Positions 37,358-44,513 of a stretch of 64,000 bases of DNA are shown piece after piece. The stretch spans positions 4,154,001-4,218,000 of the forward strand of contig NZ_CP060497.1 of NCBI RefSeq assembly GCF_014334135.1, read 5' to 3'. The notes under the pieces are model-generated. The model was not told where the DNA came from and did not search any database. It saw only the letters and a list, made by a program, of their open reading frames with translations. Numbering within the stretch: the stretch's first letter is position 1; the number at the start of each line of letters is the position of its first letter. The translations under genes were made by a program, and so were the position numbers. The DNA is from Olivibacter sp. SDN3. Its GTDB lineage: Bacteria > Bacteroidota > Bacteroidia > Sphingobacteriales > Sphingobacteriaceae.

Positions 37358-37708
37358 ATGATGATGTGTCTAGTAATTTTTGTAAAATTAACAATATCAG
37401 AAAAGAAGATCGATTGAAAAATAAATATACCGGATAAGATAATAAAAAGCACCAATTTGAGTTTATTATTTATAAATTAATGATACCTGAATTGTAAAGA
37501 TAATAGTGGATGTTCTATTTTAATTTATTGTTAATCAGCTTGTTGTGCTATTATGTTTCCATAAGAAAAATTAAAAACTTATTTTCGCAGCAATTCTGGA
37601 AAAATAATAACTCCAGAAAGATATGTTCTTAACTCGGGTAAATGCTGAACTAAACTAATAGTTGCATTGTAATTGTAAAGAACGATTGTGTATTCTTAAA
37701 GTAGTAAT
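37358..37708. other. Intergenic gap of 351 bp
   Basis: AT-rich spacer between two divergent genes. I see no open frame, repeat or tRNA in it. TATTTTCG near 37,580 is a weak -7-like element for the glucosaminidase gene. Confidence 0.4.
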
Positions 37709-38200
37709 ATGATAGGAAAAAACATTCGAACAATACGTTCAGTCGGAATGAAAGTTTTACTTCTGGCATTTTTATTTATAGGATTTGCAAGTGAAAGTTA
37801 TGCCCAATCTGCATATATTGAGAAACATAAATCTCTTGCAGATTCTCTTTCTAAGGCCTACGGAATTCCTTCTTCAGTGATTTTAGGAGTAGCCATTTTA
37901 GAATCAGGGAACGGACAAAGTAGAAACTCTAAATTGTTACATAATCATTTTGGTATTGTTGGAACCAACAAACTTAAAGAAACACACGGAATTAAAAGTA
38001 GGTATAGGCAATATAAAAGTCCAACTGGATCTTTTGTTCATTTCTGTAAAGTGATATCGAATAAATATTTTTACACGAAATTGAAGGGAACAGACGACGC
38101 GACAAAATGGGTGGAGGCTATTAGTAAATCCGGTTATTCTACCCATCCAGAAACTTGGAAGGCCCGTATCTTGAGAACGATATCAAAATGCAATTTATGA
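37709..38200 (+). CDS. Exported glucosaminidase (GH73-type)
   Basis: 163 residues. Signal peptide cleaved around AYAQ (residue 33), then a mannosyl-glycoprotein endo-beta-N-acetylglucosaminidase-like domain with catalytic Glu65 in VAILESGNGQSRNSKLLHNHFGIVG and YRQYKSPTGSFVHFCKVISN. It should cut peptidoglycan glycan strands. It starts an apparent transcript with the SGNH and MBOAT genes 15 bp downstream, linking wall hydrolysis to acylation. Confidence 0.85.
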   Translation: MIGKNIRTIRSVGMKVLLLAFLFIGFASESYAQSAYIEKHKSLADSLSKAYGIPSSVILGVAILESGNGQSRNSKLLHNHFGIVGTNKLKETHGIKSRYRQYKSPTGSFVHFCKVISNKYFYTKLKGTDDATKWVEAISKSGYSTHPETWKARILRTISKCNL

Positions 38201-38215
38201 TATGTTAGACTATAT

Positions 38216-39676
38216 ATGAATGCGAATAAACGTGTATTCTTGTTTATTTTTTTTAGCCTAATTTTATACTTGTTTTTTTCCTATATAAACTTAGCCTATC
38301 ATAAAACGTGGAAGCTATTTGATAGAATTAACTTAATTGCAGATATTGTTGTTCATCCAAATGCAATAGATGATATTACTGTACGTGATACGTTATCTGA
38401 TGAATTACTTTCTAAAGAAATTGATTATAAACCATCTTCATCTACGGTTACCGAAGTAAAAGATAGTTTACAGAAACAAATCCAAGAGGTTACTGAACAA
38501 TCTACAGCAAAGCGCTCTCGGCCTATATCCCTTGCAAATAAGATAACGAGAAAAGAAATAATTGGCTTTTCTGACGACACGGTACAGTCTGCCTTAACTC
38601 AATTTGCCGAGAAAATTTATCGACTGAAGAAAGGCGAAAATGTGCGCGTTCGGATAGCCTATCTTGGTGATAGTATGATCGAAGGTGATCTACTGTCGAA
38701 AACATTGAGAAATTGGTTGCAAAAAACGTATGGTGGTATTGGGGTTGGCTTTGTTCCCATTACATCCCAGGTGGCACAATTTAGGCAAACCGCACAAGCA
38801 ACCTATTCCGATGGTTGGAAAGATTTAAACTTTAAAAATTCGAAAAATAAACACCTTTTTTTATCTGGGCATGTGTTTTTCTCGTCAGGAGCTGATTGGA
38901 TTAAGGTAAAAGATAATACCACACGAGATACTACAATAATTCTGGATAAGTATCTTTTTTACGGTCCTTCTACAGATACTTCACAAATAACAGTAAATGG
39001 CAAAGCAATTAAACTGTCAGGAAAAGCCCCGTTCAATAAACAAAATTTATTGAGCGATAAGTCGAAAACTATGCATATCGCGTTTAGTGATCGACAACTT
39101 CCGGTTTATGGTTTAAGTTTTGAGTCAGAACAAGGTATCATAGTTGACAACTTCTCTTTTAGAGGCATTTCTGGTTTGGAGTTTGGTAGAATTGATACCG
39201 GTTTTCTTCAAGCTATTCAGCAGTCTAACTCCTATGATCTTATTATTTTCCAGTACGGTGTAAATGTTATATACGATCCTGAGGAAACCAATTTTAACTG
39301 GTATAAGAGAGCTGCCATTCCTGTTATTAATAAAATGAAGACTTGTTTTCCAGAAGCAGATATTTTAATTATTGGTACCGGTGATAGGGCCTTTAGATAT
39401 CCTGAGGGTTATCAGTCGGCTATTGGCATCGAGGAACTTGTCAGCGTACAGGCGTCTTTGGCTTCACAAACGAAGTGTTCATTCTTTAGTTTATATGCTG
39501 CTATGGGGGGTAAAAATTCTATGGTAAATTGGGCAAATCAGACGCCAAGTTTAGCTAATAAAGATTATGTACATCCCAATGCGTTGGGAGCTAATATATT
39601 AGGTAAGAATTTGTTTGACGCTATAAAAAAGGACGTTGACAGATTTGATGTCAATAGATATTCAGAAGAGCATTGA
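38216..39676 (+). CDS. Membrane-anchored SGNH/GDSL hydrolase (O-acyl transfer partner)
   Basis: 486 residues. Membrane anchor at about 8-28, a Ser/Thr-rich linker to residue 100, then an SGNH hydrolase: catalytic Ser in GDSMIEGD (S153), Asn in block III (FQYGVN) and DxxH (D450, H453) in DYVHPNALG. Such proteins paired with MBOAT enzymes move acetyl groups onto glycans, as AlgX/PatB do. 15 bp after the glucosaminidase, 2 bp before the MBOAT start. Paralogue of the convergent gene at 41318-42622. Confidence 0.8.
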   Translation: MNANKRVFLFIFFSLILYLFFSYINLAYHKTWKLFDRINLIADIVVHPNAIDDITVRDTLSDELLSKEIDYKPSSSTVTEVKDSLQKQIQEVTEQSTAKRSRPISLANKITRKEIIGFSDDTVQSALTQFAEKIYRLKKGENVRVRIAYLGDSMIEGDLLSKTLRNWLQKTYGGIGVGFVPITSQVAQFRQTAQATYSDGWKDLNFKNSKNKHLFLSGHVFFSSGADWIKVKDNTTRDTTIILDKYLFYGPSTDTSQITVNGKAIKLSGKAPFNKQNLLSDKSKTMHIAFSDRQLPVYGLSFESEQGIIVDNFSFRGISGLEFGRIDTGFLQAIQQSNSYDLIIFQYGVNVIYDPEETNFNWYKRAAIPVINKMKTCFPEADILIIGTGDRAFRYPEGYQSAIGIEELVSVQASLASQTKCSFFSLYAAMGGKNSMVNWANQTPSLANKDYVHPNALGANILGKNLFDAIKKDVDRFDVNRYSEEH

Positions 39677-39678
39677 TA

Positions 39679-41337
39679 ATGGATTGGAATTTACCATCTA
39701 TCGAATTAGATTACACTGCACTTACCAGTGAATTTTTTTATGATTCCAAAAATCCATTACTTTTTAATAATGGTTTTTTTGTTTTCTTTTTTGCCTTTTT
39801 CATTATTCTATATTACCTTTTTAGGAATCAATATAGCGTAAGAAGGTACATCTTTTGTAGCTTTTCGTTGTACTTTTTCTATAAAGCAAGTGGCTATTTT
39901 GTAAGCTTAGTTATTATATCGGCAGTTGTTAATTATTGGTTGTCGCACGCCATTTACAAGAAAAGAAGCGGGGGTAGAGGAAAAATCCTGCTCCTTTGTT
40001 GTGTGATATTTAATTTAGGTGTTCTCTTTTATTTTAAGTATACAAATTTTTTTATTTCAGTTACCAATCAGCTATTTTATACGGACTTAAATTTGCTGAA
40101 CATCCTTTTACCCATAGGTATTTCTTTCTACACATTTGAGAATCTAAGCTATAACATTGACGTATATAGGAGAGATTTCAAGCCTGCGAAAAAATTTAGC
40201 GAATATTTATTATTTTTATCTTTCTTTCCTAAACTGATGATGGGCCCAATAGTGCGTGCGCACGATTTTGTTCCACAAATAAACAAACCTTATTTTCTTA
40301 CAGATACCGGTTTTGCCAAAGGTTTTTATTTGATCATTTCGGGCTTGATAAAGAAATTGATCATCTCTGATTATATAACCTTAAATTTTGTTGATTATGT
40401 TTTTGACGACCCGGCAAGATATACTGGTCTTGAAAACCTGTTTGCGGTATATGGTTATGCGATTGTAATTTACTGTGATTTCAGCGGTTATAGTGATATT
40501 GCTATAGGCATCGCCAAATGGTTAGGTTTTACTATTCCTCCAAATTTTTTATCCCCTTACCAAAGTAAAGATATCACAGAATTTTGGCGGAGATGGCATA
40601 TATCACTCTCTTCGTGGCTACGCGATTACTTATACATACCATTAGGAGGAAACAGAAGTAGCACAATGGCGTCATTTCTGTTTTGTATATGTTTTTTTAT
40701 TGGCGTTTTCTATGGCAGTAAGCATCTGTTGAATTTTAATGATGAGTATGCAGGCATTTTATGCGGCATTATATTACTTGTTTTGATTATTCCTGCTGTT
40801 ATTAACCAACAGATAAAGGGTATCTCTGCTAATATGAACCTGCTTACTACTATGTTATTAGGCGGATTTTGGCATGGTGCAAGTTTCAACTTTTTAATCT
40901 GGGGAGCCTTGCATGGACTTGCCTTGGCCCTGCATAAAATTTGGATGCTGATTACTAATGGGTGGATGGATGGTATAAAAAGTAGAACGGTGTACACCGT
41001 GTTAGCTACTATTTGTACATTCCATTTCTTGTGTTTTTGTTGGATATTCTTTAAAGCACCTGATTACGATGACGCCATTGTGATGATAGAAAAGATTAGT
41101 CACGATATTGACTTTAACGTATGGAAAGCTTTTATTGATAACTACATCAGTGTAGTAGCTATGATGGCATTTGCGCTTATTATTCATTTTATTCCGGATG
41201 ATTTGGCCGATAATGTAATAGAAAGGTTGGGAAGATTGCCACTTATTGCTTATTTAGTTGTGTTTTTTTGCTTTCTACTTTTATACGGTGTGTTTAAATC
41301 AGCCAAGCCGGTAATGCCTATCTATCTGCAGTTTTAG
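39679..41337 (+). CDS. MBOAT family O-acyltransferase (PatA/AlgI-like)
   Basis: 552 residues from the ATG at 39679 (a TTG at 39673 is in frame). About 11 membrane helices. MBOAT signatures: YSDIAIGIAKWLGF, FWRRWHISLSSWLRDYLYIPLGG and the active-site histidine in GFWHGASFNFLIWGALHG. Transfers acyl groups, probably acetyl from the cytoplasm, to an envelope glycan through the SGNH partner. Its 3' end overlaps the convergent second SGNH gene by 20 bp. Confidence 0.92.
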   Translation: MDWNLPSIELDYTALTSEFFYDSKNPLLFNNGFFVFFFAFFIILYYLFRNQYSVRRYIFCSFSLYFFYKASGYFVSLVIISAVVNYWLSHAIYKKRSGGRGKILLLCCVIFNLGVLFYFKYTNFFISVTNQLFYTDLNLLNILLPIGISFYTFENLSYNIDVYRRDFKPAKKFSEYLLFLSFFPKLMMGPIVRAHDFVPQINKPYFLTDTGFAKGFYLIISGLIKKLIISDYITLNFVDYVFDDPARYTGLENLFAVYGYAIVIYCDFSGYSDIAIGIAKWLGFTIPPNFLSPYQSKDITEFWRRWHISLSSWLRDYLYIPLGGNRSSTMASFLFCICFFIGVFYGSKHLLNFNDEYAGILCGIILLVLIIPAVINQQIKGISANMNLLTTMLLGGFWHGASFNFLIWGALHGLALALHKIWMLITNGWMDGIKSRTVYTVLATICTFHFLCFCWIFFKAPDYDDAIVMIEKISHDIDFNVWKAFIDNYISVVAMMAFALIIHFIPDDLADNVIERLGRLPLIAYLVVFFCFLLLYGVFKSAKPVMPIYLQF

Positions 41338-42622
41338 CTAGATGAGCGTCAACGATATGCTGATTATCTAGATATCGGTTGTAACCGTTTGCCAGTGCGT
41401 CAAACAGTAATGCTCCTTGTATACTGTAGGCCTTCTGTTGGTAATGGATTTTATCCGTTTGAAGAAGGTTATTTTTTAACCATTCGTTGGATGACCCCAC
41501 TCCTCCGGTAATTTCATATAAATCCCATAAAGGAATTCCAAGGCGGCCACTATAGTATCGAAGTGCTAAATTAAGACGTTCTATCATAGGATTTCTGGTT
41601 CCTTTTTTAAACGATTCGGCTGTTGTAGTTAACAGTACGGCTGCATTTGGATTGATCGTTTTTATCTTGGCTATCGTTTCGGCAACATGATTAATATACA
41701 CCTCCTCTGTCATATCATTATAAAAAGCTTCATTGGTGCCCATTGATAGTATGTATAAATCAGCTTGCAGTTTCGGTAACTGTTTCCAGAACAGTGGTTC
41801 CTTATTATATTGCTCATAACGAGCCCCGTTTACACCGATCGTATGTAGTAGAACACCAGGCACATTTTTTTTCTCCAAAGAAGCTCCAAAAAAATAAGCT
41901 TTTGTTTTTTCAGCACTAATGGTGACTTCATTGACGGAGGAGCCCAAGTTAAATTCCCTTGTCTCAAAATCGCCGTCGGCCACTGTGGTAGTCTGACCAA
42001 TCGCGGATTTGCCGTTTATTGTCGATAGCTGCCAAGGACCTTTACTTACAAATAGTTTAACGTGATCAAAGGATTGTTGTTGGGCACTAACATCTGGTTT
42101 AAGTGTTAAGTGCAATTCGTTCCTTCCATAGAGGCCACTGAGTGAGAAACCTGTTAGACCGGCACTAAAGGGCGATCGTGCTTGGCTAATTTTAGTATTT
42201 TGCCAGCGCGTGCTAGCGACGCTTTTTATATCTAGTGGCCCGTTGGTGCGAGCAACTTGATAGGGAAAAACAAGCCCTCTGCCCGCATTGCCAAAAAAAT
42301 CCTGTAAACCTGTACGCACCTCTCTAGAAATGAGATCAGGCTGTATATGCGAATCGCCTATCTGTACGACAGATACTCTTTGGATATCGCCATTTCTTAG
42401 CTCAAACAATTTTTGATAAAATGATGCCAGTCCTTCCACATTATTGATAGTGTCAATTAACGGATCAATAAAAGCATAGGTGCTATTATAACGAAGTGAA
42501 GCTATTCTGAATTTTTTTTTTTCGCTACTATATTTGGTATTGGGTGCTTTGGTTAATGTTTTTCCGACATATAATGCACCGGAAGAAATGGATAGAAGGT
42601 ATAAGAGTAATACGTAATTCAT
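41318..42622 (-). CDS. Exported SGNH/GDSL hydrolase, paralogue of the 38.2-kb protein
   Basis: 434 residues. Signal peptide (VLLLYLLSISSGALYVG), then the SGNH core with S91 in IGDSHIQPD, block III SMGTNEAF and DxxH (D390, H393) in DKIHYQQKAY. Full catalytic set, so it is probably active. Convergent with the MBOAT gene, with a 20-bp overlap of 3' ends. It could remove (esterase) or add acetyl groups in the same system. Confidence 0.8.
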   Translation of the reverse strand: MNYVLLLYLLSISSGALYVGKTLTKAPNTKYSSEKKKFRIASLRYNSTYAFIDPLIDTINNVEGLASFYQKLFELRNGDIQRVSVVQIGDSHIQPDLISREVRTGLQDFFGNAGRGLVFPYQVARTNGPLDIKSVASTRWQNTKISQARSPFSAGLTGFSLSGLYGRNELHLTLKPDVSAQQQSFDHVKLFVSKGPWQLSTINGKSAIGQTTTVADGDFETREFNLGSSVNEVTISAEKTKAYFFGASLEKKNVPGVLLHTIGVNGARYEQYNKEPLFWKQLPKLQADLYILSMGTNEAFYNDMTEEVYINHVAETIAKIKTINPNAAVLLTTTAESFKKGTRNPMIERLNLALRYYSGRLGIPLWDLYEITGGVGSSNEWLKNNLLQTDKIHYQQKAYSIQGALLFDALANGYNRYLDNQHIVDAHLAKTADR

Positions 42623-43730: not shown

Positions 43731-43880
43731 TAGAAAAATGGATGATAAAACGCCTATATATGGAAATATAATAATTTTTTTAAAGCGTAAGTTAAATATT
43801 TATTTAGTTATACAGCGCATTCCTCGATATTGTTTAATTTTGGCGTGCGTTGTTTTCTTCGCCATAATGATACTGAAAGC

Positions 43881-44513
43881 ATGAGGACATTATTAATTTT
43901 ACTTTTGAATGGTTGCTTTTTAGTGCTTGCAACCGTTGATAGTCGCGCGCAAGGTTTTGCTGAAGAGATTATATGTTACCGGGAGAGCTATAAACAAGCT
44001 TTTGTTGAGGAAGCGAATAGTCCGTTAGAGGAATCAGACTTAGATGACCTTCGGTTTTACGAACCGGATAGCACATATAAAATAAAGGCCTATGTCACGT
44101 TTATTCATGATCCCGAGCCTTTTATAATTCCTACATATAGTGGTGTAGACAAAAAGTATTTGAGATTTGCTGCTTTAAATTTCAAGCTACATGATGAGGA
44201 GATAGAACTCACACTCTTTAAGAGTCTGGGTTTGTCAGACCCTATATACGCTGATTACTTGTTTTTGCCGTTCACTGACGCCACGAATGATGTTACGACC
44301 TATGGTGGCGGTCGTTATCTAGATCTGAAAAGAAGTGATATCAAGGGGAATGAAATTATCATAGATTTTAATAAATCATATAATCCTTATTGTGCCTATA
44401 GTGCTGGATATAATTGTCCGATTCCACCACCGGAAAATGCGCTGAATATTTCAGTAGAAGCAGGAGAAAAAAAATTTGAAGGGAAATATAAAGGTGAGCG
44501 GAGAGTTAAGTAA
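43881..44513 (+). CDS. Hypothetical exported protein
   Basis: 210 residues from the ATG at 43881; a longer non-ATG reading from 43830 is rejected because a clean signal peptide starts here (MRTLLILLLNGCFLVLATVDS, cleaved near RAQG). The mature part has motifs AYVTFIHDPEPFIIPTYSGVDKKYLRFAALNF and CPIPPPENALNISV. The spacing suggests a beta-rich exported domain of the DUF1684 type, but this is tentative. It follows tonB by 150 bp. Confidence 0.6.
   Translation: MRTLLILLLNGCFLVLATVDSRAQGFAEEIICYRESYKQAFVEEANSPLEESDLDDLRFYEPDSTYKIKAYVTFIHDPEPFIIPTYSGVDKKYLRFAALNFKLHDEEIELTLFKSLGLSDPIYADYLFLPFTDATNDVTTYGGGRYLDLKRSDIKGNEIIIDFNKSYNPYCAYSAGYNCPIPPPENALNISVEAGEKKFEGKYKGERRVK

Follow-up and report, generated by a model that had tools for sequence, protein, structure and literature searches.

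A probable Bacteroidota-type peptidoglycan O-acetylation and de-O-acetylation cluster with an accessory glucosaminidase gene in Olivibacter sp. SDN3

How is an acetyl group handed on to peptidoglycan if the SGNH proteins encoded next to a PatA-type MBOAT both resemble the esterase Ape1, and why is a wall hydrolase encoded in front of them? These questions are raised by a block of four genes in Olivibacter sp. SDN3, whose genome consists of one contig of 6.12 Mb. The window analysed here is a stretch of 64,000 nucleotides of this genome (contig NZ_CP060497.1, positions 4,154,001 to 4,218,000), and at 37709-42622 of the window the four open reading frames, G1, G2, G3 and G4, were confirmed. On balance, the block is probably an O-acetylpeptidoglycan (OAP) cluster of the Bacteroidota type, serving both the O-acetylation of peptidoglycan and its reversal, with a glucosaminidase as an accessory. 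This reading starts from what was observed of the genes present, their catalytic residues, orthology and co-conservation, and of protein fold and topology. The features are as follows.

37709-38200, forward strand: G1, 163 aa, predicted exported single-domain GH73-type endo-beta-N-acetylglucosaminidase with a signal peptide
38216-39676, forward strand: G2, 486 aa, N-terminally membrane-anchored Ape1-fold SGNH protein with a CBM35-like insert, literature class Ape1b
39673-41337, forward strand: G3, PatA-type MBOAT, predicted acetyl exporter, with His401 and the C-terminal peptide PIYLQF
41318-42622, reverse strand: G4, exported Ape1-type SGNH protein with a signal peptide and a CBM35-like insert, positional counterpart of Ape1c
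41318-41337, no strand: tail-to-tail overlap of G3 and G4, 20 bp, the codons of the PatA acyl-shuttle hexapeptide
37675-37697, forward strand: leader element GTAAAGAACGATTGTGTATTCTT, 23 bp, directly 5' of G1, conserved across the genus

Identity and gene order of the cluster

G3 is the only MBOAT of the genome (Pfam MBOAT PF03062, E=2.6e-20); its start may be ATG 39679 instead of TTG 39673. It is orthologous to the MBOATs of other Bacteroidota OAP clusters, being placed in the MBOAT tree inside a 101-row clade of OAP-type MBOATs with a Shimodaira-Hasegawa-like approximate likelihood ratio test (SH-aLRT) value of 98. The members of this clade are nearly all Bacteroidota; a few come from Ignavibacteriota, and one lies on a contig that is filed under Chlorobiota. 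MBOATs from polysaccharide clusters of the same family (e.g. locus L093) branch outside it. The catalytic His401 lies within GGFWHGA. In Campylobacter jejuni PatA, His315 and the C-terminal Tyr of an FXYXXF motif constitute an acetyl-Tyr shuttle (PMC12148441). The C-terminus of G3, PIYLQF, retains the Tyr (Tyr551) and the last Phe of this motif. Its first Phe is replaced by Pro, a point that weighs against the proposed reading of the block; the relatives in the same part of the tree mostly end in P[ITV]Y[FL][QKR]F, and most other Bacteroidota of the clade in FIYFQF. G3 also matches DltB structures (E=2e-19). Identity with DltB was rejected because the NCBIfam match falls far short of its cut-off and DltB has no shuttle peptide such as the one that is part of G3.

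G1 and G2 are separated by 15 bp and G2 and G3 overlap by 4 bp, so that G1-G2-G3 likely form one transcript. G3 and G4 converge and share 20 bp at their 3' ends. All five genomes sampled from the genus keep the block as a unit, and in one of them its flanks are different; the block is therefore far from a chance assembly.

Around the members of the 101-row clade, the commonest order is G2>G4>G3 (54 loci, of which 48 have ample flanking sequence). This matches the ape1b-ape1c-pat order described for Bacteroides and Porphyromonas by Weadge & Clarke 2005 (PMC1199599), where peptidoglycan O-acetylation was measured as 69.4% in B. fragilis and 27.0% in B. thetaiotaomicron. The order G1>G2>G3<G4 is found at 9 loci from several families, which form one supported clade. 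Rarer are G2>G3 (7), G1>G2>G4>G3 (2), G1>G2>G3 (1) and a few others; at 17 loci, of which 5 lie close to the end of a contig, the MBOAT has neither G2 nor G4 nearby. The layout is uncommon but phylogenetically coherent, and the cluster is an ordinary OAP cluster in kind.

An earlier reading, made from the sequence only, had noticed an intact active-site His in the MBOAT and a GH73 hydrolase opening the same operon, and both observations hold. It had also proposed conservation of the four-gene block as a check, which the five genomes of the genus bear out. Its description of the arrangement as unusual was right only in part, since an MBOAT with two SGNH genes is the standard Bacteroidetes OAP cluster, known since 2005. 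Uncommon are only the leading GH73 gene G1 and the inverted, tail-to-tail G4.

As in the ape1b-ape1c-pat cluster, a PatA-type MBOAT is combined with two SGNH proteins of the Ape1 family; of these genes, that of the anchored protein comes first in the operon and that of the MBOAT last. In contrast to that cluster, the anchored SGNH gene has a GH73 gene in front of it, and the gene in the Ape1c position stands convergent behind the MBOAT with the 20-bp overlap. Moreover, G4 keeps an inserted domain of about 100 aa, whereas Ape1c was described without one; sampled Bacteroides copies of G4 are mostly short, about 280-370 aa. The equation of G2 with Ape1b and of G4 with Ape1c is drawn from position and motifs, not from the original sequences. 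The patA-patB-ape1 operon of Neisseria and Campylobacter (PMC12148441, PMC5077204) likewise encodes an MBOAT with the His and the shuttle Tyr, an anchored SGNH protein and an Ape1 esterase. There, however, the shuttle peptide is FXYXXF, and the place of PatB is taken in Olivibacter by an Ape1-fold protein, with no PatB relative in the block.

The leading glucosaminidase gene and the leader element

G1 belongs to the Pfam Glucosaminidase family (PF01832, E=1.4e-22) and matches FlgJ structures with E about 1e-4. It has the catalytic domain and Glu in common with FlgJ and the GH73 glucosaminidases, but unlike FlgJ it has no flagellar domain and is operon-linked to O-acetylation genes. The catalytic residue, Glu65, is kept in all 12 operon-linked orthologues. 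These occur at 12 of the 101 sampled OAP-type loci, in all five genomes of the own genus, and are confined to one part of the MBOAT tree, where the linkage amounts to 3 label changes compared with 11.7 for shuffled labels.

Even so, G1 might be a hitchhiker, a general-purpose GH73 enzyme placed upstream by chance and with no role tied to O-acetylation. We take this to be a real possibility, though somewhat short of an even chance. Several facts count in its favour and against an accessory role. Most OAP loci are without G1, and an orthologue of 55% identity stands alone beside an acetyl-CoA synthetase gene in genome G059 (L150 7678-8145, reverse strand), where no OAP-type MBOAT was matched. 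Moreover, the Olivibacter genome contains two other GH73 genes, a tandem of distant G1 paralogues at 909201-910465 of the contig (L096). On the other hand, G1 holds a constant place directly before G2 in the 12 loci, including the congener with different flanks and loci L011 and L116 with the other gene order. A search of 101 family genomes likewise counts against a hitchhiker: five congeners gave strong G1 matches (59-100% identity, 209 bits or more), whereas the other genomes gave only paralogues with at most 97 bits, G059 (170 bits) excepted.

If G1 is indeed accessory to the cluster, its role may be guessed from analogy. Reviews state that lytic transglycosylases are blocked by O-acetylation of N-acetylmuramic acid (MurNAc) and that glucosaminidases are unaffected (PMC6174289). 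It is therefore reasonable to regard G1 as a putative hydrolase that tolerates the O-acetyl mark. A glycan cutter coupled with de-O-acetylation is known from LtgA-Ape1 of Neisseria meningitidis (PMC7083599). The likeness lies in the pairing of a glycan-cutting enzyme with a de-O-acetylase; the difference is that LtgA is a lytic transglycosylase needing a free C6-OH, whereas G1 is a predicted glucosaminidase, a type reported to be unaffected by the mark.

The leader element directly 5' of G1 is nearly identical in all five genomes of the genus, including the one with different flanks, though the remaining upstream DNA diverges. It contains a short AAGAA/TTCTT inverted repeat and is present as a single copy in the genome, even if 3 mismatches are allowed. 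It is a probable candidate for a regulatory or promoter/5' untranslated region element. We claim no promoter, since a scripted search found no Bacteroidetes-type site (TTG-N17-24-TAnnTTTG) near the block and the number of sigma-70-type matches was close to that in shuffles (29 versus 23.0, sd 5.3).

Which SGNH protein transfers and which hydrolyses

Both SGNH proteins are Ape1-like in sequence and fold. They are two of 12 GDSL matches in the genome; G4 matches Lipase_GDSL_2 with E=1.1e-12 and G2 with E=7.5e-7 (30.3 bits, just under the curated Pfam cut-off of 32.9). In profile and phmmer searches, both match Neisseria Ape1 (4k3u; E=1.2e-18 in either case) and 8gkd/8gld, named C. jejuni Ape1 by the fold search (G4 versus 8gld, E=2.6e-15). 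They are distant paralogues of each other (23% identical, E=6e-14), and a search of the genome with full-length G2 found G4 as the sole other protein. The AlphaFold2 models have predicted local distance difference test (pLDDT) values of 87 for G2 and 90 for G4. N. meningitidis Ape1 is the best Foldseek match of G2 (TM-score TMt 0.86); G4 matches it with 0.84 and C. jejuni Ape1 with 0.81. G2 has the Ape1 fold including the inserted CBM35-like domain, and G4 has the Ser, Gly, Asn, Asp and His of the Ape1 SGNH blocks together with the inserted carbohydrate-binding domain. Complete catalytic sets are present in both proteins (Ser153/Gly317/Asn350/Asp450/His453 in G2, Ser91/Gly266/Asn297/Asp390/His393 in G4). 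PatB was absent from the 50 best fold matches of G4 as well as of G2, and Ape1 tops both lists; neither protein is thus a PatB by family.

The two proteins differ in their motifs and N-termini. All 59 G4-type proteins have His directly after the catalytic Ser, and their block II is mostly GVNGA and block III mostly GTNEA; G4 itself has the full Ape1 esterase signature GDSH/VNGA/GTNEA/DxxH. None of 75 G2-type proteins has His at the position after the Ser, where the residue is Met (42), Phe (20) or another. Their block II reads S-F-R-G-x-S-G, block III YG(L/V)N(V) and block V mostly DYTH or DYVH. G2 is without the GDSH, NGA and GTNEA signature of Ape1 and has GDSM, RGISG and GVNVI. The N-terminal helix looks uncleaved in G2-type proteins, whereas G4-type proteins have a signal peptide. 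In G2, a hydrophobic transmembrane helix (residues 3-27) provides a single N-terminal anchor, as in PatB.

The retention patterns across genomes also separate the two. G2 adjoins G3 in most loci. Where G2 and G3 occur without a nearby G4, G4 is encoded elsewhere in several genomes; four metagenome-assembled genomes with G2 and G3 (L017, L027, L028, L045) gave no separate G4, only weaker matches taken as G2 itself. Ten genomes in which the MBOAT locus lacks a nearby G2 were checked: in seven (L040 included) a strong G2 lies at another place in the genome or a few kb away, two have none, and one has a weak G4-like match only. Because it is anchored, usually encoded beside the MBOAT and changed in its active-site motifs, G2 is probably the acetyltransferase and, given its co-retention, the obligate partner of G3. 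By the same motif, anchor and retention patterns, G4 is likely the opposing O-acetylpeptidoglycan esterase.

The sequence-only reading had described both SGNH proteins as catalytically intact and the second as a potential opposing esterase, in agreement with these results. Its likening of the system to PatA/PatB stands for a PatA-type MBOAT-SGNH system and falls for G2 as a PatB relative, given the Ape1 sequence and fold and the block II Gly of G2.

Alternatively, G2 could be a second, anchored esterase, in keeping with its published name Ape1b; the transferase partner of PatA would then be G4 or the product of a gene elsewhere. We consider this rather unlikely, even though part of the evidence weighs against a transferase role for G2. 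Its Ape1 fold, its CBM35-like insert and its Ser-Gly-Asn-Asp-His set are those of an esterase. According to the sequence alignment, G2 (Gly317) and 69 of 75 family members keep the Gly of block II; in PatB structures it is replaced (Ser161/Asn165; PMC12148441). Profile searches found no similarity of G2 to PatB (7tjb, 8tlb), and with the retained Gly this makes G2 esterase-like by family. Moreover, both SGNH classes were put down as esterases in 2005 (PMC1199599), ten other GDSL matches exist in the genome, and the genomes without G4, being metagenome-assembled, are possibly incomplete. Nevertheless, the canonical esterase motifs and the cleavable-looking signal belong to G4, whereas G2 is anchored, diverged in blocks I-III and retained beside the MBOAT, and no G4 was seen in several genomes that have G2 and G3. 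Our literature search found no paper on PatB and SGNH in Bacteroides, nor any naming the transferase of Bacteroidota.

Other pairings of MBOAT and SGNH genes were seen. In a subclade without G2 (around L030-L059), the gene just 5' of the MBOAT mostly encodes an anchored SGNH protein with GDSM(L/I/T)EG or a similar motif in block I; that an anchored protein usually stands in for G2 there favours G2 as the transferase. In the Bacteroidales loci L037, L047, L049, L056, L059 and L071, a short anchored SGNH protein replaces G2/G4; some of these proteins have weak DUF459 similarity, and phmmer of one Bacteroidales anchored SGNH protein against the PDB gave no match. The short SGNH protein and the MBOAT of that subclade probably make up a separate acylation system. 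Locus L092 (7812-11382) is of mixed arrangement: the MBOAT is followed by a G4-type SGNH gene and by one for an anchored SGNH protein of another type (GDSEAEG).

Proposed working and meaning of the cluster

Acylation of an envelope polymer other than peptidoglycan (exopolysaccharide, lipopolysaccharide or lipid), which such MBOAT-SGNH pairs do carry out on alginate, cellulose and teichoic acids (PMC12148441) and which Pfam and NCBIfam labels reading only MBOAT/DltB-like would permit, is very improbable in view of the lack of adjoining glycosyltransferase or polysaccharide genes, the separate branching of polysaccharide-cluster MBOATs, two Ape1-like SGNH proteins and a peptidoglycan hydrolase in the block, and O-acetylated peptidoglycan in Bacteroides bearing this cluster (PMC1199599).

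For a peptidoglycan-directed OAP cluster, we infer all the following activities, and along with them the target polymer in Olivibacter, the function of G2 as transferase and what G1 is there for. G3 would take acetyl from cytoplasmic acetyl-CoA and pass it via His401 to Tyr551 of its shuttle peptide, on the periplasmic side. Anchored next to G3, G2 would accept the acetyl on Ser153 and transfer it to the C6-OH of MurNAc in nascent peptidoglycan; G2 would be an Ape1-fold protein turned PatB equivalent. G4, a presumed soluble periplasmic Ape1 with a carbohydrate-binding insert, would remove acetyl groups so that lytic transglycosylases can act. G1 would cleave bonds between N-acetylglucosamine and MurNAc. 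As this type of cut is reported not to be hindered by MurNAc O-acetylation, a hydrolase that tolerates the mark would be encoded in the very operon that writes it.

The overlap of G3 and G4 covers the six shuttle codons and the stop of G3. Its length is 20 bp without exception in the five genomes of the genus and 12 bp in L109; in L004 the two genes do not overlap. G4 probably accommodates the constraint, since its tail at the overlap (residues 427-434) is of low confidence in the AlphaFold2 model. Antisense regulation between the G3 and G4 transcripts is possible. No terminator-like site was found at the junction, a weak indicator for this phylum. Further downstream in the window, 43830-44513 encodes an exported DUF1684 protein 3' of a TonB gene, unrelated to the cluster.

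A bolder version, which we hold to be unlikely as a whole, would make the block an 'acetylation-proof' wall module. The writer operon would bring its own unblocked glucosaminidase, the eraser would lie tail-to-tail with transcripts overlapping at the shuttle codons and antagonising each other in antisense, and G2 would represent a class of SGNH acetyltransferases evolved from the Ape1 esterase fold and misnamed Ape1b.

The described OAP clusters of B. fragilis and B. thetaiotaomicron have no PatB and two 'esterases', yet these bacteria have O-acetylated peptidoglycan. The proposed reassignment of roles, with G2 as transferase and G4 as esterase, would be useful here. With G2/Ape1b as transferase, the gap in Bacteroides O-acetylation becomes directly testable. 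The link to a GH73 gene hints at a way in which a wall that resists lysozyme and transglycosylases could still be opened by the cell itself.

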